A stretch of DNA of 36,604 nucleotides, taken from IMG/VR virus record IMGVR_UViG_3300028883_000999, positions 1-36,604 of that record; one strand, 5' to 3'. Each line of letters begins with the position of its first letter. Position 1 is the stretch's first letter. Both the position numbers and the translations under genes were made by a program. Shown piece by piece: positions 3,446 through 34,954 of the stretch. The stretch comes from a virus. Below the pieces are notes generated by a model. It ran no database searches. It was given only the letters and a program-made list of their open reading frames with translations, and had not been told where the DNA came from.

Positions 3446-3467
3446 TTTTAAAGTATACACTTTAAAA
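3446..3467. repeat. Palindromic extension of the late motif
   Basis: TTTTAAAGT (3446-3454) and ACTTTAAAA (3459-3467) are perfect inverted arms around a 4-base centre. One arm is the distal part of the 14-bp late motif. None of the other motif copies shows the second arm. It could be a dimeric operator over the transcription start, or a small mRNA hairpin. Confidence 0.5.
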
Positions 3468-3472
3468 TATAA
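3459..3472 (-). promoter_or_regulatory. Late motif copy 1 (exact): before the terminal single gene
   Basis: Minus-strand TTATATTTTAAAGT, identical to the copies at 7810, 20251 and 31007. The gap to the ATG at 3436 is 22 bases, the longest in the set. No TTG-like -33 element is seen 18-21 bases upstream. Confidence 0.7.
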
Positions 3473-4195: not shown

Positions 4196-4264
4196 TTACT
4201 TGAGATGATTAATTGGTTCTGCTATTCCGACCAATAGATACAAAATGATCCAGAGTGCTCTCAT
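4196..4264 (-). CDS. Possible 22-aa hydrophobic peptide
   Basis: An ATG overlaps the stop of the gene at 4261 (ATGA) and opens a 22-codon frame, MRALWIILYLLVGIAEPINH then Leu-Lys. The TAA lies one base before the ATG of the next gene, so the frame fills the gap exactly. Hydrophobic centre could span a membrane. In a genome where genes chain by overlaps this is plausible, and such peptides occur in lysis cassettes, but the frame is too short to be sure. Confidence 0.35.
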   Translation of the reverse strand: MRALWIILYLLVGIAEPINHLK

Positions 4265-4758
4265 AGCTCTTCAGCAGTTTCCGGTTGACCTTTCACAATC
4301 ACAAAGACCCGGTTTGGGGTGTGGATCCTGAAGCTCGTAGCCCTGGTCAGATGTGGTGTTCGGATCTCCAGGAACCGGCCCTCGGGAAACATCACCTCCC
4401 CCCTATAAAATATAGGTTGTGTGGCGGTGTCGTGGTTAAAAGCCAGGACATCTGGATTGACTATATCAGGGATGGCCTGGACATACATTGTATCCCCACG
4501 TCCTCTGCGTATTGTGAGGTTTCCAGCGGATTCGGGATCATACCATATTTCGCATTCCGGCGTGCCTTTCTCCGTCAGGATCCCGCATAGGATATTCAGC
4601 TTTTCAAGTTCATTCTCCCGGTCCACGATATAATGCATCGGGATATCATCCCGGTCTTCCAGAATATAGATATGATCACCGGTCTCGAAGCGGATCCGGT
4701 GCTGGCCGAAGAGTGCCAGGGGAAGAATACCCAACAAAATGATATATAAATATCTCAT
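4261..4758 (-). CDS. Secreted protein of unknown function
   Basis: 165 aa with a signal peptide of about 18 residues ending in ALFG, leaving Gln19 as mature N-terminus. The rest is mainly beta-type sequence with acidic loops (RFETGDHIYILEDRDDIP; RGEVMFPEGRFLEIRTP). No recognised domain. It starts inside the end of the sigma-like gene (4-base overlap) and precedes the lysis cassette. It could be a periplasmic lysis accessory (spanin-like position) but has no membrane anchor other than the signal peptide and no lipobox. Confidence 0.6.
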   Translation of the reverse strand: MRYLYIILLGILPLALFGQHRIRFETGDHIYILEDRDDIPMHYIVDRENELEKLNILCGILTEKGTPECEIWYDPESAGNLTIRRGRGDTMYVQAIPDIVNPDVLAFNHDTATQPIFYRGEVMFPEGRFLEIRTPHLTRATSFRIHTPNRVFVIVKGQPETAEEL

Positions 4759-5786
4759 GCCTCATAGAACTTTGGTAATTCATTCTCCCTGAAATTCTCC
4801 TTGATCAACCTGAGCACACCTTTTTGTAACACCTTGCCGGTTTTGCATGTAAGGCCATAGCAATATCTTTTGATGAATTGATCCTGCCTGATTACAACAG
4901 GCTTGCGAACAAATGATGCTGATCTGTTCTCATGATTTGGAGGGGATATCGCTCTTCCGTAATTGCTGATGCGGTATTCATACTTCCAGTCTCCGTTCAT
5001 GATTCTCCATCTTTCATCAGGGAAGGTGTGTTCGAGATCGAAGAAATGTCCTGACTCAAGCGCCCAGAGAAAAAGCCTTTGAGGCCATTCTCTTCTCAAA
5101 TTTTTCTTGGCCTGGCTGAAACTTGCATTCACGTTCTCCCTGGTGATCCCCATTGCCATGGCGATCTCTCCCTGGCTTTTACCATGGTAAAACCATTGCC
5201 TCACCATCTCGCGTCTCTGTTTCGGCAGGAGCTCGATCAGGCCTCTTAACAATTCCTCCCGGGCATCGGGATCCGTTTCGCGATATTCCTCCTCCCGGTC
5301 GGATATCTTCTTTTCGATCTGCCGGTCAACAATCTCATTCTCGCCCAGGCGGATCTTATTATATATAAGCAGACCCCGGATCCGGTCTTTAATGTGTGGC
5401 CAGACATTCATTTGAGCCAGAACTTCCTCTTCATCCAGTTCGTAATCCTTTTCCGTTTCCAGCCTTGCCTTTTCTTTCAGATAGCTCCTCAAATAAGAAA
5501 CATGATGGTATGGGATCCCGGTGGTTTTGTAGCGGAATTCGACCATGGCATTACGTATGTTGATTTTTACGAAACTTGAAAAGCCACCTCGTTCCAGGTC
5601 GGTTTTTCTTATTGCCTCCAAAACTGCGATACGGCCTTCCTGGACGAAATCATCATAAAAGGGATCCTGATGATTATGGAGATGCCTCCAGGCCTGGTAA
5701 GTAATCTCAGATTCAAAATGCTGAAGCACCTGGGTAACTGCGGATTTCTTTCCCTGCTTGGCGGCTATGATGACCTCATTACCCAT
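4755..5786 (-). CDS. Sigma-70-like factor with C-terminal NUMOD4-like domain
   Basis: 343 aa from the ATG at 5786, which overlaps the previous stop as TGATG; a GTG at 5804 is the alternative. Residues 45-85 match sigma region 2: DDFVQEGRIAVLEAIRKTD, then ERGGFSSFVKINIRNAM. Residues 178-232 match region 4: LIELLPKQRREMV, then the HTH KSQGEIAMAMGITRENVNAS. After this, residues about 257-343 contain ERWRIMNGDWKYEYRISNYG and Arg, the signature of NUMOD4 domains that usually accompany HNH homing endonucleases. No HNH nuclease is present. It probably directs RNA polymerase to phage promoters; the late motif is the obvious candidate target. The fusion is unusual. Confidence 0.75.
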   Translation of the reverse strand: MGNEVIIAAKQGKKSAVTQVLQHFESEITYQAWRHLHNHQDPFYDDFVQEGRIAVLEAIRKTDLERGGFSSFVKINIRNAMVEFRYKTTGIPYHHVSYLRSYLKEKARLETEKDYELDEEEVLAQMNVWPHIKDRIRGLLIYNKIRLGENEIVDRQIEKKISDREEEYRETDPDAREELLRGLIELLPKQRREMVRQWFYHGKSQGEIAMAMGITRENVNASFSQAKKNLRREWPQRLFLWALESGHFFDLEHTFPDERWRIMNGDWKYEYRISNYGRAISPPNHENRSASFVRKPVVIRQDQFIKRYCYGLTCKTGKVLQKGVLRLIKENFRENELPKFYEA

Positions 5787-7396
5787 CAGTTCACCTTTTT
5801 CCACTTCCCCCTTTCTATTCCGGCGCTGATGTAAACATCTTTAGCGCTTGTGTCGATGTAGATATCCCCGGCCTTCAGAGGGACTGGTAGGAGGGATGTA
5901 TCGCCGGCGGCACTATGTATGGATGGTGTGTGCAAATTCTCAAAATACCCGGTCTCCAGGGATCCGGAAAGTGTCATGCTGGTATTATCGATTACGATCT
6001 CATCAGATTCGGTGGCCAGGATCGTAGTGGTGGATTCGGAGTTGTTATGAGCTATGATCTCCAGGGCGGTATTCAGATCGAAAGATGATCGGTTTATCGG
6101 ACCGATCCTTACTCCCCCGACATTTCCCCTGAAAGCATTATGGCCCACGGGATATCCACTATGAACATGCATGATTGCGTATTCCGATGAATAGCCGAGA
6201 GCTATTGAGCCCGGGATCCTGGGAGATGGGTTTATCCCGCCATCTTTCCCTATTACGGCGATAACTTTATCACACCCGCAGCTGATTGAAGAGCCTAAAA
6301 AAAGATTCTCAAGACATCCGGTATTGCTATTCCAGCCTATCACCATAGAGTTCTGGCTGAAATTGGAATTACCATATCCGATTACAGAATTAAATTTTCC
6401 GGGTTCAAAATAATTGTCATACCCTATGTTGATGAGTGTGTCCTGTGCGTGTTTGAAGCTCTGAACAAAATCAAATTTTCGCGTAAACGGGTTTTTGATA
6501 ACCCTCTGTCCCCAGCTGCATGCAAAGACTGACAACAGTAATATGGCGAACACAAACAGCCTGCGTCTTTTCCTCACCGGCGCAACAAACAGAAGCAGTG
6601 GAATGAATCCATTCAATTTTACCCAGTCCCCCCGGGTGGATCCCACGGAGATATAGGTATCGCCGGCTGATGTATCGATGAACATATCACCGATCTTATC
6701 GGGAGTATTATAGTTCGATGTGTCGCCGGCCGCCTGGTGGATCGTTGGAACATGGGTGCAGACAACTGAATCCGCGATCAGGATCCCGGAGAGCTCGGCA
6801 TTCCCATCATAATCAAGTGTGAATACATCGCTTCCGTTCCAGTTCTTGCATTTCAGAAAATAGGAGTCCGGATCCGTGAGGTGTTTATTGATCTGAAGGG
6901 CAGTCAATGTGTCCAGATCCGGTCCTCCGATGCTTACCCCGCCGATATCCGTCGTGTAGGTCTCCCCGGGCTCATACCCGCTCTGAACGTACATGATGGG
7001 GACCGAAGAAAAATATCCCAGGCCGACAGATCCGTATCGGGAGTTTGTCATCCTCAATCCGGTGGTCAGCCCACGTCCGATCGTAATTGTGTGGGTGGTG
7101 TCTGCAGAAAGGAAGTATCCAAACAGCAGGTTATTCGATTTATTCACCGAGTTAAAGTAACCCAGGGCCATGGTCTCAGGGGCATTGACCAGGTTGCCGT
7201 GCCCGATCACACCATTCAGAGTATCTTCTGATAGGACATTATTTGTCCCGAAATTGATCACAGAATCATTTACCGGATTGTATTGAGAGTAATAATCATG
7301 AGACCGGATAAATGGATTCCAGAATTTTTTCTTTTCCTGCCCGTAAATAATGGATGGGATCAGAAGCAGGAAGAAAACAAGGTGCTTCAGCTTCAT
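5786..7396 (-). CDS. Exported fibre-like protein, two fused tandem copies
   Basis: 536 aa made of two homologous halves. Half one (1-262) begins with a signal peptide ending IIYG before Gln20; half two begins near residue 274 with a second signal-peptide-like segment, RKRRRLFVFAILLLSVFACS then WGQ. Both contain YadA-head-like repeats (NGVIGHGN / NSVIGYGN; ETMALGYFNSV / NSMVIGWNSN) and end alike (AGDTYISVGSTRGDWVKLN versus a form ending RGKWKKVN). The first copy has lost its stop, so a short linker GFIPLLLFVAP joins them. An internal GTG at 6577 could still start copy two alone. Repeats of this type form trimeric fibre heads. ATGA overlap with the gene at 7393. Confidence 0.7.
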   Translation of the reverse strand: MKLKHLVFFLLLIPSIIYGQEKKKFWNPFIRSHDYYSQYNPVNDSVINFGTNNVLSEDTLNGVIGHGNLVNAPETMALGYFNSVNKSNNLLFGYFLSADTTHTITIGRGLTTGLRMTNSRYGSVGLGYFSSVPIMYVQSGYEPGETYTTDIGGVSIGGPDLDTLTALQINKHLTDPDSYFLKCKNWNGSDVFTLDYDGNAELSGILIADSVVCTHVPTIHQAAGDTSNYNTPDKIGDMFIDTSAGDTYISVGSTRGDWVKLNGFIPLLLFVAPVRKRRRLFVFAILLLSVFACSWGQRVIKNPFTRKFDFVQSFKHAQDTLINIGYDNYFEPGKFNSVIGYGNSNFSQNSMVIGWNSNTGCLENLFLGSSISCGCDKVIAVIGKDGGINPSPRIPGSIALGYSSEYAIMHVHSGYPVGHNAFRGNVGGVRIGPINRSSFDLNTALEIIAHNNSESTTTILATESDEIVIDNTSMTLSGSLETGYFENLHTPSIHSAAGDTSLLPVPLKAGDIYIDTSAKDVYISAGIERGKWKKVN

Positions 7397-7807: not shown

Positions 7808-8467
7808 TTACTTTAAAATATAACCTGCCAGTTCCCTTTGCCCGGGGTCGGGATCAAAATGCTCCATGTAGTATTCGACAATGTTTTTGCGGGCTTTCAG
7901 ATATGAGATATACTGTTCACCCTCATCAGTGAGAAACCACTTCCACCGCTCCAGCACCTTCATCTCTCTGCCCCTTCCCTGGTAGGTGAAGTCATCAAAA
8001 GAGCTTCCCCGTCCCCCGTTAGGCACAAAATCAATGGCCTCTTCGTTATATTCCCCGTCCAGAATGCAGCAGATCCCCTGCCGGTATGCATGGCTGCGGA
8101 CAAAGTGATCGTAATATAGGCGGTATTTCTCGCCGATGTAATGAGTATCATTGAATGCTTCCCTGGTAATGGCATACCAGGTATCAAACAGGCCGGCTGC
8201 CCTGTCCTGGGTGGCATTGTTGATGATGTGCCTGATCAGGGAGGCGGCATAGTTCAGAAAATCCCTCAGCTGGAGAACGGCAATAACCGGTTGATCCTTT
8301 TTGGGCGGAGCACCCCGCCATACCTCTGTTCGGATCCGGTTATGATAGATCTTCGGCGGGATCCCCTCGAACTTGTGTACCTTATCCCCCGGGAGCCAGG
8401 ATCGGAGCATCTTTGCCGTCCAGTTATGGCCGCTGCGGGAGGGGGCTACCAGGATGATGTGTTTCAT
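7808..8467 (-). CDS. Sulfotransferase-like P-loop protein
   Basis: 219 aa. Residues 9-17, PSRSGHNWT, match the 5'-PSB loop of PAPS sulfotransferases (typically PxSGTxW-like), and residues 66-78, LQLRDFLNYAASL, match the 3'-phosphate-binding segment (RDPRD-xxxS type). A later RYRLYYDHFV fits the YYEDL-like strand, and a C-terminal SFDDF then RWKWFL region follows. No signal peptide, so it should act in the cytoplasm. It would transfer sulfate from PAPS to a sugar, lipid or protein. It lies between fibre-like genes with 4-base overlap at its start. Substrate unknown; a kinase-like P-loop fold is the alternative. Confidence 0.6.
   Translation of the reverse strand: MKHIILVAPSRSGHNWTAKMLRSWLPGDKVHKFEGIPPKIYHNRIRTEVWRGAPPKKDQPVIAVLQLRDFLNYAASLIRHIINNATQDRAAGLFDTWYAITREAFNDTHYIGEKYRLYYDHFVRSHAYRQGICCILDGEYNEEAIDFVPNGGRGSSFDDFTYQGRGREMKVLERWKWFLTDEGEQYISYLKARKNIVEYYMEHFDPDPGQRELAGYILK
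7810..7823 (-). promoter_or_regulatory. Late motif copy 2 (exact): before the 7393 unit
   Basis: TTATATTTTAAAGT on the minus strand, with 9 bases to the ATG at 7800. It is embedded in the last codons of the sulfotransferase-like gene, where it encodes Tyr-Ile-Leu-Lys and overlaps the stop. No -33 TTG is visible upstream. Confidence 0.7.
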
Positions 8468-10725
8468 TCTCCTTTGTAAATTGGGTTCTCCACCGTGCTT
8501 GTCGTTCCTGAAGCGTAAAATAGTATTACGCTGTAATAAGGCGGGACAGTTACCGTGCCCGACACATCATCCCCGTCAATATCCTTGAACGTGCAATCGC
8601 CAAGATCGAACTCATGTGAACTGCCTGACCAATTTCTAAAACACCAGACAAATTCATCCTCATCAATTCCGCTTACGTCATCATATTCCCAGCTTGCCTG
8701 ATTATAAGTAGAATTATCTCCAAAAGGTGAATTGGACTGCCATTCAGCAAGTGTCCATGTGTCCTTATAAGGTGATGTGCTATACCATGAATATACTATG
8801 TCATCTGTTGCTGTGAACGGATTGAAATAATAGTTGTAATCAATATCGCTACCCGTGGATGATATGCTTTTATCATTCTTATATGCCATGACCCATCCGG
8901 TATCCGCATCACACACCACAATGGTATTATATTTGAATGTCGTGTATGTCCCCTCGCCATCGCTGAATCCGTTCTTCAGAAAGCCCGTTCTCTGCTGTGG
9001 ATCGGAATGATCCCTCGTAAAATTGGTTAATATGTTGTACCTGTATGTATTATGATCCGCTTCGTTCTGCTGGAAAATAGAGTAGGGGCTGTTGTAAACG
9101 GTATTGCTGTCCACAACAAAGTATTCAGAAGAATGGTCAAGGTAGATTCCCATTGTATTGCGGTCATCCGTGTCAATGAACTCAAAGCCCATGTCGGGAT
9201 CAGTTAAGATATTATTCTTGATCACCTTATTCCAGTTATTTTCACCATACACATATATCCCCCCGCCGTCACCGATATGGAAATTCCACCCCTCGATCAG
9301 GTTGCCGTAGATGGTCATGTTGTCGGGCTGGGTTGCTCCGACAAGATTCGCCCAAAAAATCCCGTTATAACCCGTATTTTCAATGTGGTTGTATCGAAAA
9401 TCCGTGTCCCCGATATTGTCCTTTGCGAATATCCCCATGTAATGCCGCCCTTCACGGTCACCGAAGTATTCATATTCACCCATCCCCTCTATGTAACAGT
9501 TGTAAATGTGAGTCATGTCGTTCTCGTCTGATCCCGTGACGTAGATGCCGTTTGAATTTCCATTGACAACAGTATTATACTCAATATCCACATTGCCGCT
9601 TCTCACAGCAGCTATCCCGGCAAATCCTGAATTATAAACTTTACAAGAATCCACCTCAATATCATCCGAATTTAAGATGTAAACCCCGTACAGGTTCCCT
9701 CCGTAAACATTCAGGTTGCACAGCCTCACGTACTCAGAATTGGCAATATAGATCACACTGTCGCCCCAAGGAGCGTATATATCCAATGTCGAAGGATTAA
9801 CAGTTGAGTACAAAGTGACCCTTTGTTGTGAGTAATCGTATTTCCATTCAAGGTTACTATCCGGTGTATCATTGACTATCTTGTACTTAATATCGCCGGA
9901 TGCATTCATATCGTATGTGGTAAAATCAGCAGCATCCAGATTCACCTGAGTGGCCGTATTGCTTGTAATCCTGGCTTTATCCGCAACCCAGTCCCTTACG
10001 CCAATATAGGCAAAAGCACCCTGATATTCATTTGTCGAAGCACCCAACTCGCTGTCCACGAAGTAACTCTTATAATCTCCTGCAACACTTTCAATATCAT
10101 AGTATCCGCTGTTGGGTGTCTGTGCGATCCCGTAAGTCTGATAGTCAATATACAGGCTGTTGAGTATTGTGATATATGTTGGTGTCTGATCGGTAGATTC
10201 CAGAACGGCCTCGGTTTCCGTAGTTGGCAAATCAGCGTCATCTTTGTGGTAAAGGTTCCCCCCGTCACTCGTCCAGCTTATCAGCTCCTTATAACCCTTA
10301 ATGCTCGGACGGCCATTACCAAATTTATCTGCACCGATTATCTCGTATTTATCCCCGGACGATCCGGTTTTGCCCGAAAAAACGATGTGTCCATAGTAAG
10401 CAGTGTCCGAGATGGCAACCCTGATTCCTTCGCCTGATGCAGCAATGATCTGATTGAGTTTGGTAAGTGTTTCTATCGGGGCTTCCCTGGATGTGCCTTC
10501 ATTGCCGTCACTCCCGTCCACGGCACAAAGCCAGATATCAGCCGTCATGGAATTCCAGTAATAATAACTTTGTGGAGGAGGAGTTTCTTCCGGGGCAACA
10601 TAGACAGCTGATTTCTGAAAATTTCCTTTATCTGTCGTTTGTAACGCACCCCTGCCGTTTGTGCGGAATTGCCCGTTAACAATTAACGGGATTAATAGTA
10701 ATATGTAAATAAGTATCTTTTTCAT
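8464..10725 (-). CDS. Exported right-handed beta-helix protein (tailspike/lyase-like)
   Basis: 753 aa. Signal peptide ending IVNG with mature Gln19. Residues about 65-100 carry the DUF1565-like opening WLCAVDGSDGNEGTSREAP, and residues about 320-560 show pectate-lyase-like turns rich in Asn and Gly (VRLCNLNVYGGNLYGVYIL; NTVVNGNSNGIYVTGS; KNNILTD). A beta-sandwich-like C-terminus follows. The fold is typical of polysaccharide-degrading tailspikes and secreted lyases. A phage tailspike should not need a signal peptide, so it may act at the cell surface instead. Overlaps both neighbours by 4 bases. Confidence 0.7.
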   Translation of the reverse strand: MKKILIYILLLIPLIVNGQFRTNGRGALQTTDKGNFQKSAVYVAPEETPPPQSYYYWNSMTADIWLCAVDGSDGNEGTSREAPIETLTKLNQIIAASGEGIRVAISDTAYYGHIVFSGKTGSSGDKYEIIGADKFGNGRPSIKGYKELISWTSDGGNLYHKDDADLPTTETEAVLESTDQTPTYITILNSLYIDYQTYGIAQTPNSGYYDIESVAGDYKSYFVDSELGASTNEYQGAFAYIGVRDWVADKARITSNTATQVNLDAADFTTYDMNASGDIKYKIVNDTPDSNLEWKYDYSQQRVTLYSTVNPSTLDIYAPWGDSVIYIANSEYVRLCNLNVYGGNLYGVYILNSDDIEVDSCKVYNSGFAGIAAVRSGNVDIEYNTVVNGNSNGIYVTGSDENDMTHIYNCYIEGMGEYEYFGDREGRHYMGIFAKDNIGDTDFRYNHIENTGYNGIFWANLVGATQPDNMTIYGNLIEGWNFHIGDGGGIYVYGENNWNKVIKNNILTDPDMGFEFIDTDDRNTMGIYLDHSSEYFVVDSNTVYNSPYSIFQQNEADHNTYRYNILTNFTRDHSDPQQRTGFLKNGFSDGEGTYTTFKYNTIVVCDADTGWVMAYKNDKSISSTGSDIDYNYYFNPFTATDDIVYSWYSTSPYKDTWTLAEWQSNSPFGDNSTYNQASWEYDDVSGIDEDEFVWCFRNWSGSSHEFDLGDCTFKDIDGDDVSGTVTVPPYYSVILFYASGTTSTVENPIYKGE

Positions 10726-11375
10726 AGACTTGATGCTTTCCAGTCATCAGCCATGGAAGTCCCTGTACTGTATGTTACTACACCAGCTTTATTCCCATCT
10801 ATTTTGTAAGGTTCACCAACGGTGTACTTTCCATCACCATCAATAGAGGTATCCAGTACGCCGTCTTTATAACATCTTAGTTCATACCCTACCACCTCCA
10901 GTCGATACACACTTCCGTTCTGCCATGCGCTTCCAGATGCAAATAGTGACAAAGCGGATCCGTTCTGAACGATACGTAACCGGGACCCGGAATTATCACT
11001 CATAAAAAGATAATATTTCCCGGTTGAACTATCGTACCGCACAATTATTCCCACGAAACCGGATCCGATATTATCAACCTTGATTTCAGCCCAATGATCA
11101 CTATTCAAAACAGCATCATACGCGCAATACGCATAGTAAGTGTATCCTCCTTTTATTACATTATCACCCGAATTGTTGTAGATCACAATATCCTCACTTG
11201 GCCGGTCATTCAACCAATTTTCCCTATCATCCAGGTTACCCACATCACCAGTAAAGTCATCAGCATATACCACACTCTCTTTCTCCAAATAGGGAACAGT
11301 CATCATAACGACCTGTGAAAAGGCCGTAAATGACAGACTAATAAACAGTACAATAAGCTTGAATAGTAGCACCAT
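10722..11375 (-). CDS. Exported LamG/concanavalin-like domain protein
   Basis: 217 aa from the ATG at 11375; this start gives a clean signal peptide (VLLFKLIVLFISLSFTAFS, mature Gln) and overlaps the previous gene by 38 bases. The mature part looks like a concanavalin A-like jelly roll: YADDFTGDVGNLDDRENWL, then WAEIKVDNIGSGFVGIIVRY, YYLFMSDNSG and YRLEVVGYELRCYKDGVL. Such domains bind carbohydrate. It sits among other exported fibre-like genes. No catalytic residues recognised. Confidence 0.65.
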   Translation of the reverse strand: MVLLFKLIVLFISLSFTAFSQVVMMTVPYLEKESVVYADDFTGDVGNLDDRENWLNDRPSEDIVIYNNSGDNVIKGGYTYYAYCAYDAVLNSDHWAEIKVDNIGSGFVGIIVRYDSSTGKYYLFMSDNSGSRLRIVQNGSALSLFASGSAWQNGSVYRLEVVGYELRCYKDGVLDTSIDGDGKYTVGEPYKIDGNKAGVVTYSTGTSMADDWKASSL

Positions 11376-12453
11376 ATCTCGGTAATAAAGTTCTGTCGTT
11401 AAATCGTATCCACATCTTTTCCTCCGGAGCCAGATAGAGCTTGTTGTCCGGCACAAAGGTCTGGCCCTTCACCGTAGATGCCGCCCCCACTGATTGCCAG
11501 GTGGTGAATATCCCCTCCGCTGTCGTGGATGTTGAATTAAGAGTATCGTTCGCATACGCCTGAAAAGAGAAATTCGGGGTGTCATCTGTTATACACAACA
11601 CCCGCAGGCTGTCAATGCCGCAAGAGTCCGGTGATCCTCCCCACTCAACAGGGATGAAGTCCCTGCCGGCCTCCATCTGAGCCGAGTCGGTAAAGGCCCA
11701 TGCGAATATTGTGGGGACAACTACGGTATCAGATATATCTGCCCCTCCGCCCGCCGCAATCTCTGCAAGCGTCTTTGTGCCAGCGACAGCATCAAAGAAT
11801 GTCAGATTGCCCGATGGATCTTTGTATATGCCCGTACTTGTATTGCCTATGTAATGATCGGTTACATATGCAGATCCCCACCAATAATAATCCGCTCCTA
11901 TGTCTTTTTCACCGCTTGCAACCGGAAGGATGGTTTTGTAGACAGTTATATTATCATCCGTCATCGCTAATGGAACAACACCGTCAACATAGATATCTAA
12001 TGTGCCGGCTGAATAGCGGAGGTAATTATTCGTTCCTCCATCCAGGTATAGTCTGTTGCCTGACTTCAAGGCCAGATTCCCGTCTTTATTGAGCACCTCT
12101 TCTACCAGCACACCATGATCGGGGTCCCTCTCGTTGATCGTATCGGTGGCAATATAGGAAGTGTCAACACCTCCTCCACCTCCTCCGGCAGGCGGATCGG
12201 CCCAGTACGGATCGGTGCCGTCCGAGTAAAGGATATCCCCAACGTGGCTCGTTTGATCGGGAAATGCAAGCTCCAACAGGGTCTGGAGTGTCATGCGGAC
12301 CGCGGTATCACCCTGGACGACCACTACCTGATCACCAAGGTTACTTTCTGTTGTCAGGGTCCAGTCTGCCCAAGGAACGGGATCCTTGTCCTGCGCCGTC
12401 ATTACTGCCGGCCAGAGGACCAGGGAGAATACGATTATGAGTATTTTTTTCAT
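11338..12453 (-). CDS. Exported collar/fibre-like protein
   Basis: 371 aa from the ATG at 12453, which overlaps the upstream 56-aa gene as TGATG (an in-frame GTG lies one codon earlier). Signal peptide ends VMTA, mature Gln. The segment GDILYSDGTDPYWADPPAG followed by a Gly run resembles linker regions of phage tail fibres, and the middle has fibre-like short strands (NRLYLDGGTNNYLRYSAGTL; VDGVVPLAMTDDNITVYK). The C-terminal third is a separate beta domain. Predicted exported, which is odd for a virion fibre. Confidence 0.6.
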   Translation of the reverse strand: MKKILIIVFSLVLWPAVMTAQDKDPVPWADWTLTTESNLGDQVVVVQGDTAVRMTLQTLLELAFPDQTSHVGDILYSDGTDPYWADPPAGGGGGGVDTSYIATDTINERDPDHGVLVEEVLNKDGNLALKSGNRLYLDGGTNNYLRYSAGTLDIYVDGVVPLAMTDDNITVYKTILPVASGEKDIGADYYWWGSAYVTDHYIGNTSTGIYKDPSGNLTFFDAVAGTKTLAEIAAGGGADISDTVVVPTIFAWAFTDSAQMEAGRDFIPVEWGGSPDSCGIDSLRVLCITDDTPNFSFQAYANDTLNSTSTTAEGIFTTWQSVGAASTVKGQTFVPDNKLYLAPEEKMWIRFNDRTLLPRYGATIQAYCTVY

Positions 12454-20250: not shown

Positions 20251-20264
20251 ACTTTAAAATATAA
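20251..20264 (-). promoter_or_regulatory. Late motif copy 3 (exact): before the tail chaperone unit
   Basis: TTATATTTTAAAGT with only 3 bases to the ATG at 20247. It follows a terminator stem directly; the terminator's T-run overlaps the first bases of the motif. If transcription starts about 7 bases past the core, the mRNA would have almost no leader. Confidence 0.75.
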
Positions 20265-24739: not shown

Positions 24740-24752
24740 ACTTAAAATATAA
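24740..24752 (-). promoter_or_regulatory. Late motif copy 4 (near): before scaffold
   Basis: TTATATTTTAAGT, one A shorter than the exact 14-mer; 11 bases from the ATG at 24728. It lies divergently from the plus-strand membrane gene at 24812. Confidence 0.6.
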
Positions 24753-28878: not shown

Positions 28879-28892
28879 GTTTTAAAATATAA
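28879..28892 (-). promoter_or_regulatory. Late motif copy 5 (near): before portal
   Basis: TTATATTTTAAAAC, matching the exact motif in 12 of 14 positions; 9 bases to the ATG at 28869 and 4 past the large terminase stop. Confidence 0.6.
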
Positions 28893-31006: not shown

Positions 31007-31020
31007 ACTTTAAAATATAA
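31007..31020 (-). promoter_or_regulatory. Late motif copy 6 (exact): abuts the small terminase ATG
   Basis: TTATATTTTAAAGT followed at once by ATG. A transcript starting at normal spacing from this core would be leaderless or begin within the first codon. The motif lies in a 29-base gap after the sigma-like gene at 31036. Confidence 0.75.
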
Positions 31021-31035
31021 TTTCACCATGGAATG

Positions 31036-31827
31036 TCATTTTATGGGTGATCGCTGTATTGGTGAGGCTTGCAGAGGCTGTTTTTTCCTGTTCCGTCTGT
31101 TGATGCGGCTCAATGTAGAGTGAGATTTCATCAATCTGAGCTTTTGAGCCATGCGTTCGACAGACTTATAATTCCTTCCCAGGTACCCGGCAATTTTGAT
31201 TGTTTCCATGTACGGATATTCCGCTTTCAGGTATTCGATCTCCGGTCCGGTCCACTTCCTTCTAGATGAATGTGGATTTTTTATCCGCCACATCATTTTT
31301 CGTTTCACCTTGTTGAATATCCAGCAGACTGTGGTATATCCTTCGGGTCCCGGCCATTTACTCAGGGGATTGTCGGCAAAGAATTTCCAGGAGAAGATCT
31401 CCTTTTCCCTGTCAGGCAAGTTAAGTGATGCAAGTATCTCTCGTGCCTGCCGTGTTCGTTGCAGGATCTTTATCTCCTGGTCGATATCATCTTCCTGCTG
31501 CAGATCCTCTGGATTCAGATCTCCTGGAGAGATGTTCTGGTTCAGGGGGACGTTTTTGGTTTTATGGCGGTATGGCGAGGTCTCGGAGTGAGTATTGAGC
31601 TTGATCATCTTCAAGACAAAGAAGTCAAGCTCTGTATAGCCTTGTTTCTTTCGTGATAAAAGGGAGGTGAGTTTCTTGTCATCCTTCTGCAAAAGGTTCA
31701 GAAGGACTTCATCGAGTATGTCGCCGGCCTCATCCGGGATCCTAGCCAGGGAGGCATGATACTCCGCATAATCGCTCCAGCGTTGATAATTCTTTTCTAT
31801 ATGTTCATTAACCGCTTGGGAAACCAC
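31036..31827 (-). CDS. Sigma-like regulator with Myb/SANT-like C-terminal domain
   Basis: 263 aa from a GTG at 31827; no ATG lies between it and an upstream stop. N-terminal half shows region-2-like helices (DILDEVLLNLLQKDD). Residues about 128-180 resemble region 4: REILASLNLPDREKEIFSWK then GPEGYTTVCWIFNKVKRK. Residues about 188-235 have a Myb/SANT pattern: KWTGPEIEYLKAEYP, IKIAGYLGRNYKSVERMAQK. It ends in a basic tail. It lies just before small terminase, where phages often place late activators, so it is a prime candidate to recognise the late motif. The sigma match is weaker than in the gene at 4755. Confidence 0.6.
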   Translation of the reverse strand: MVSQAVNEHIEKNYQRWSDYAEYHASLARIPDEAGDILDEVLLNLLQKDDKKLTSLLSRKKQGYTELDFFVLKMIKLNTHSETSPYRHKTKNVPLNQNISPGDLNPEDLQQEDDIDQEIKILQRTRQAREILASLNLPDREKEIFSWKFFADNPLSKWPGPEGYTTVCWIFNKVKRKMMWRIKNPHSSRRKWTGPEIEYLKAEYPYMETIKIAGYLGRNYKSVERMAQKLRLMKSHSTLSRINRRNRKKQPLQASPIQRSPIK

Positions 31828-34649: not shown

Positions 34650-34954
34650 GGTTTTTTTAATTGGGGTTTCTTTACAATCCAGCCGCGCCTGGGGTATCTG
34701 AATACACACATCCGGTTCAGATCACGGAGCCGGAGCCTTGAAAGGCCGTTCTTCATTCGCGCTGAATTGAATGCGTCCACGGTAGTGAGATTGAGTATCA
34801 CATAGCCGAACTTCTCGGCGAAAACCCAATGGATGTTCCCACTTTTAAAATATAATCCACGGATCAGCAGTTGATATCCCAGCCTGGTTCGTGCCACGGG
34901 GATATCCTTCTTCCGGAGGCTTTGACGTATGTATTTATAAGATAAATTCCCCAT
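34646..34954 (-). CDS. Hypothetical basic protein (102 aa)
   Basis: Opens MGNLSYKYIRQSLRKKDIPV with an HTH-like look and is Arg/Lys-rich throughout (ARMKNGLSRLRLRDLNR). A lengthened copy of the late motif lies inside it at 34841-34855. No family recognised. Confidence 0.5.
   Translation of the reverse strand: MGNLSYKYIRQSLRKKDIPVARTRLGYQLLIRGLYFKSGNIHWVFAEKFGYVILNLTTVDAFNSARMKNGLSRLRLRDLNRMCVFRYPRRGWIVKKPQLKKP
34841..34855 (-). promoter_or_regulatory. Late-motif-like site inside a gene
   Basis: TTATATTTTAAAAGT, one A longer than the consensus, inside the gene at 34646, about 190 bases before the next start. It may be chance or an internal promoter for the membrane and KOW-like genes. Confidence 0.3.

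Follow-up and report, generated by a model that had tools for sequence, protein, structure and literature searches.

Introduction

T4 gp55 is a phage late sigma factor that serves a -10-only late promoter, lacks region 4 and uses gp33 and gp45. To our knowledge, sigma factors that carry an additional module for sequence-specific DNA binding are few; the extra domain of the ECF41 sigmas is a SnoaL-like regulatory domain. ECF41-type sigmas are described as having a fused C-terminal domain (PMC3426412). NUMODs serve phage homing endonucleases as DNA-binding modules (PMC3943268).

In this study, we describe a 343-aa sigma-NUMOD4 protein (P0001) encoded in a 36.6-kb virus record, hereafter the window, which is the whole stretch of DNA that was analysed. 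P0001 has regions 2 and 4 in common with phage sigma-70 factors (PHROG 351; the Bacillus phage SigF/SigG-like factors; that of Streptomyces phage Attoomi), but the viral sigma homologues that we read end after region 4, whereas P0001 continues into a NUMOD4 tail. With the NUMOD4-HNH endonucleases (SPO1 I-HmuI; Bacteroidales NUMOD4-HNH-HTH proteins) it shares the module W..Y.[VI]SN.GR...rLv..F, which in P0001 stands C-terminal to a sigma factor and lacks the HNH part. Like the ECF41 proteins it combines a sigma with an additional domain at the C-terminus, although the sigma group differs and the ECF41 domain is not a homing-endonuclease module. Region 4, absent from gp55, is present in P0001, and the likeness to gp55 is confined to how the two would work. 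Our preferred reading, to which we assign a probability of roughly 0.55, is that P0001 is a late-expressed alternative sigma factor with a C-terminal DNA-binding module taken from a NUMOD4-type homing endonuclease.

Results and Discussion

The gene and its surroundings

Nearly all genes of the window lie on the minus strand, in an order that is conventional for a phage: D5-like regulator, terminase, portal, scaffold, capsid, tail, fibre-region genes, the sigma-NUMOD4 gene, and then holin-like and accessory genes (roles of genes lacking a family match were read from sequence and gene order). Many of the exported proteins carry Bacteroidota-style signal peptides, and the host is a Bacteroidota-type bacterium. 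The sigma-NUMOD4 gene and its neighbours are:

4755-5786, minus strand: sigma-NUMOD4 gene, 343 aa from ATG (ORF reading; translational overlap with both neighbours)
5786-7396, minus strand: upstream gene, in the fibre region, for a secreted protein with tandem repeats; conserved in relatives L131 and L156
4261-4758, minus strand: downstream gene with a signal peptide, its start overlapping the sigma stop; its L156 homologue comes directly after a sigma gene

The preliminary description had given the coordinates 4755-5786 correctly, leaving the strand (minus) unstated, and had placed the gene in the late region; it does lie in the late block, at its end, and follows a late motif located upstream at 7813-7823. 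Its ATG at 5786 is preceded by the SD-like sequence AAGGTGA and overlaps the stop of the upstream gene as TGATG, its own stop overlaps the ATG of the next gene, and an alternative GTG start is found at 5804. The frame is intact and the codon GC3 is within the normal range.

Elsewhere in the window, two genes at 926-2569 (one with a PIN-like fold suspected by eye, the other a Trypsin_2 protease) have a GC content of 31-32%, compared with about 49% in the rest, and are likely to be recent acquisitions. An 18-bp direct repeat, GTAGCGAGAGGCGGGATT, at 477-494 and 679-696 looks like a tRNA 3' end and has inverted repeats near it; it is a possible attachment site, though no tRNA gene was found.

The sigma part of the protein

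Judged from its alignments, the part of P0001 comprising residues 1-233 is a sigma-70-family factor, with the following regions:

5535-5708, minus strand: sigma-70 region 2, residues 27-84 (Pfam PF04542, 26.9 bits against a cut-off of 24; AlphaFold2 (AF2) helices with high pLDDT)
5406-5510, minus strand: region-3-like helices, residues 93-127 (aligned to region 3 of RpoS and to RpoD-like sigmas; AF2 helices at 93-113 and 119-125)
5097-5252, minus strand: sigma-70 region 4 helix-turn-helix, residues 179-230 (PF08281, Sigma70_r4_2, 30 bits against 25.7; PF04545, Sigma70_r4, 25.1 against 24.1)

The presence of regions 2 and 4, as first proposed, is thus borne out by Pfam scores above the cut-offs and by matches to sigmas of the PDB, among which phmmer placed RpoS first (1.7e-9, residues 46-253), followed by SigA and FliA. 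HTH_16 likewise exceeds its Pfam cut-off in P0001, and the PHROG 351 sigma family matches at 3.2e-15. Since region 3 aligns too, P0001 is a sigma2-sigma3-sigma4 protein and not an ECF sigma. AF2, run with nine sequences, gave confident helices for residues 1-140 (regions 2 and 3) and moderate confidence for region 4. In the RpoS alignment, the W-W pair that primary sigmas have in region 2 is replaced by I-N, and because of this replacement the -10 preference of P0001 is not predictable from region 2.

The missing tryptophan pair and the weak region 2 score in Pfam would also fit a repressor or activator that binds DNA and has a sigma-like scaffold, but has lost the binding of core polymerase. 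However, no sigma region is missing, their order is kept, and they can be aligned to complete sigmas; we regard such a role as very improbable.

The NUMOD4-like tail

4785-5027, minus strand: NUMOD4-homologous C-terminal module with no HNH part, residues 254-334, about 80 aa (own profile, hhalign, single-sequence search, AF2 and Foldseek)

The Pfam NUMOD4 model (PF07463, cut-off 23.4 bits) gave no match at all in P0001, and the tail is for this reason named NUMOD4-homologous rather than a member of the Pfam family. A profile that we built from 20 proteins (19 Bacteroidales loci and SPO1 I-HmuI) aligned to the C-terminus across the whole module at 19.2 bits (p = 4e-8); the highest score among 20,000 shuffles was 10.8 bits, and the next ORF of the window reached 4.0 bits. 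Comparison of the tail with NUMOD4 by hhalign gave P = 2.8e-7 and a probability of 93%, and among 3,943 ORFs P0001 was the top match outside the genuine NUMOD4/HNH proteins. When the tail was searched as a single sequence against the same number of ORFs, the 14 best matches after itself were all NUMOD4 proteins, a result that our own profile cannot have biased since no profile was used. The tail retains E, W, Y, S, N, G and R of the NUMOD4 signature, together with the helix that follows them. On this evidence from sequence, the C-terminal 80 residues or so of P0001 are homologous to the NUMOD4 module. The earlier suggestion of a NUMOD4-like tail therefore stands, with profile, shuffles, hhalign and single-sequence search in agreement though PF07463 misses it. 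The accompanying claim that no nuclease is present also holds: P0001 has no HNH motif and stops immediately past the helix that in NUMOD4 endonucleases comes before the HNH part. The profile found no further NUMOD4/HNH segment in the window.

Structure prediction is supportive of the tail fold, but not independent of the homology. With NUMOD4 rows in the alignment, the AF2 model of the tail reached a core pLDDT of about 90; when these rows were left out, the tail was of low confidence. (The SPO1 row was omitted from the folding alignment, and a mixed sigma and NUMOD4 alignment, which misaligned region 4, was not used for folding.) In a Foldseek search of BFVD with the model made from NUMOD4 rows, the named matches were nearly all HNH/NUMOD4 proteins, with E values of at least 0.015, and the PDB returned only noise.

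A donor for the tail is available, as NUMOD4-HNH endonucleases are present in related phages (e.g. L006, L030). Four Bacteroidota proteins (L160, L163, L164, L165) were seen to have two NUMOD4-like modules apiece and no obvious HNH motif.

Rarity of the fusion and the same slot in related phages

The pairing of a sigma factor with a NUMOD4 domain looks new. P0001 was used for pattern scans of IMG/VR and GTDB, which yielded no relative; the viral scans relied on short conserved words, and many of the contigs are fragments. By tblastn in phage records only the Attoomi sigma was found (E 0.2), and no credible match to the tail by itself turned up in these records. Against 46 related records and genomes, none of the 40 virus records matched and three bacterial genomes had sigma-type matches only; similarly, 395 Bacteroidota genomes contained only generic sigmas. 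The NUMOD4 profile had matches in 43 of these 395 genomes, and none of the ten loci with longer frames that were read included a sigma. There was no NUMOD4 tail on eight distant viral sigmas, and no close homologue of P0001 was found in the collections searched. A sigma-NUMOD4 fusion did not come up in the literature, and the one paper in which both terms occurred appears to deal with another subject.

In L156 (IMGVR 3300001533_002447), an ECF-type sigma without NUMOD4 comes after the homologue of the upstream gene (5786-7396); this sigma has Sigma70_r2 and r4_2 above the Pfam cut-offs and runs in frame into the homologue of the downstream gene (4261-4758). P0001 is not detectably alignable to this sigma beyond region 4. 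L158 shares just a short stretch of the upstream gene and has no sigma at that place; G003, the closest long relative, ends just short of the slot. In the two phages compared, a small sample, a sigma gene recurs in the slot, the type of sigma changes, and the NUMOD4 tail is local to the window phage.

An assembly chimera was considered as the source of the fusion and is ruled out by the flanking genes, which stand in the same order on either side of a sigma gene in L156. In that phage, the frame at 10542-11471 continues from the ECF-type sigma into an exported domain, which could also be made as a separate protein from an internal ATG (MKVAKLLTALSL...); the last sigma helix would then double as the start of a signal peptide.

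The absence of the module from the L156 slot sigma is also what one would see if the tail were a relic that does not bind DNA, left by a homing endonuclease that joined the end of a sigma gene and later shed its nuclease part, with the sigma working without it. Related phages have NUMOD4-HNH genes, which are mobile, and there is no homologue in which conservation of the tail could be seen. On the other hand, the signature residues and the following helix have been kept, the frame is open, and the profile detects no other NUMOD4/HNH segment in the window; we consider a relic rather unlikely.

A late motif in the window and in its relatives

The 11-bp late motif TTATATTTTAA has seven exact copies in the window, all on the late strand:

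7813-7823, minus strand: nearest copy upstream of the sigma gene
31010-31020, minus strand: before the small terminase gene
28882-28892, minus strand: before the portal gene, conserved at the same gene in relatives
24742-24752, minus strand: before the scaffold-like gene
20254-20264, minus strand: before the tail-assembly gene
3462-3472, minus strand: downstream of the holin-like gene
34845-34855, minus strand: seventh exact copy

With up to one mismatch there are nine copies, compared with 0.7 expected, and six copies sit 1-13 nt ahead of a start codon. The motif recurs at the same genes in relatives. Across 21 distinct sites, there is no -35 element or other conservation upstream of it, and its downstream side is A-rich. 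A promoter with only a -10 element, as had been described before, agrees with a motif that has no detectable -35, and this seems a fair reading of the sites, though the motif may instead be an unusual translation signal. The copy at 7813-7823 is the probable promoter of a transcript that includes the sigma gene. A transcription study on this phage group was not found in the literature. A hairpin with a T-run, noticed by eye, abuts the motif on its upstream side and runs into it at 20254 and in L007, L008, L021 and L156; it resembles a terminator-promoter pair.

Which factor would read the late motif

The preliminary description took the NUMOD4 module to explain the recognition of a -10-only promoter. 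This link is not upheld: P0001 has kept regions 3 and 4, unlike -10-only sigmas that lack region 4, and the same motif is found in L156, whose slot sigma is of the ECF type and has no NUMOD4. The fuller form of the proposal, in which P0001 is the phage late sigma, reads TTATATTTTAA with region 2, replaces the -35 contact with its NUMOD4 tail and amplifies late transcription, would account for a motif with seven exact late-strand copies and no upstream information. The transcript with the sigma gene has a copy ahead of it, the gene has a late position in a shared operon, and the L156 sigma gene is also downstream of a copy. However, P0001 retains an intact region 4, L156 has the identical motif despite an unrelated slot sigma, the gene order places P0001 too late for switching on late transcription, and a D5-like regulator is present in most of the close relatives with the motif that cover the spot. 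We therefore hold this proposal to be unlikely. A version in which a domesticated homing-endonuclease module provides an upstream or flanking contact, so that a late sigma of a Bacteroidota phage can fire -10-only late promoters, appears quite improbable. Positive feedback by P0001 on late transcription, also suggested before, stays a conjecture, because the motif is conserved where the slot sigma is unrelated and the D5-like regulator accompanies it in several relatives.

31036-31827, minus strand: D5-like regulator upstream of terminase, the rival candidate reader of the late motif (phrog_323, 1.3e-7; conserved in relatives)

It is possible, at somewhat less than even odds, that this regulator or a host sigma reads the late motif and that P0001 serves other phage or host promoters, which is compatible with our preferred reading. 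D5-like homologues stand beside the terminase in the window and in L002, L003, L008, L009, L010 and L020, all of which have the motif. Bacteroidota promoters have the -7 element TAnnTTTG, and the motif contains the similar TATATTTT. Against such a reader, the D5-like family profile matches no sigma in PDB or Pfam, the homologue was not detected in L014, L015 and L021 (partial contigs with the motif), and L016 has the homologue but the motif only in one-mismatch versions. The D5-like protein has a C-terminal module (RKWTGPEIEYLKAEYP...) that L016 and L020 lack and that forms the N-terminus of HNH endonuclease-like proteins in L064 and L083; the protein is possibly a second regulator in the window with a module common to homing endonucleases.

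Proposed role of the sigma-NUMOD4 protein

In our preferred reading, that of an alternative sigma with an acquired module, the NUMOD4 part would come from a homing endonuclease that had lost, or never had, its HNH nuclease part, and late transcription of the gene would probably start at the TTATATTTTAA promoter at 7813-7823. P0001 would then associate with the core RNA polymerase of the host and take it to a restricted group of promoters, where the tail would add a DNA contact beside region 4. We count against this the lack of a close homologue in the collections searched, the blindness of PF07463 to the tail, the W-W pair that is not conserved and the dependence of the AF2 tail model on the homologous rows.

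The fusion is accompanied by a clean late-promoter motif that can be tested. If the tail binds DNA, the sigma-NUMOD4 protein would be a natural case in which a module of a selfish element has been re-used to alter promoter choice.
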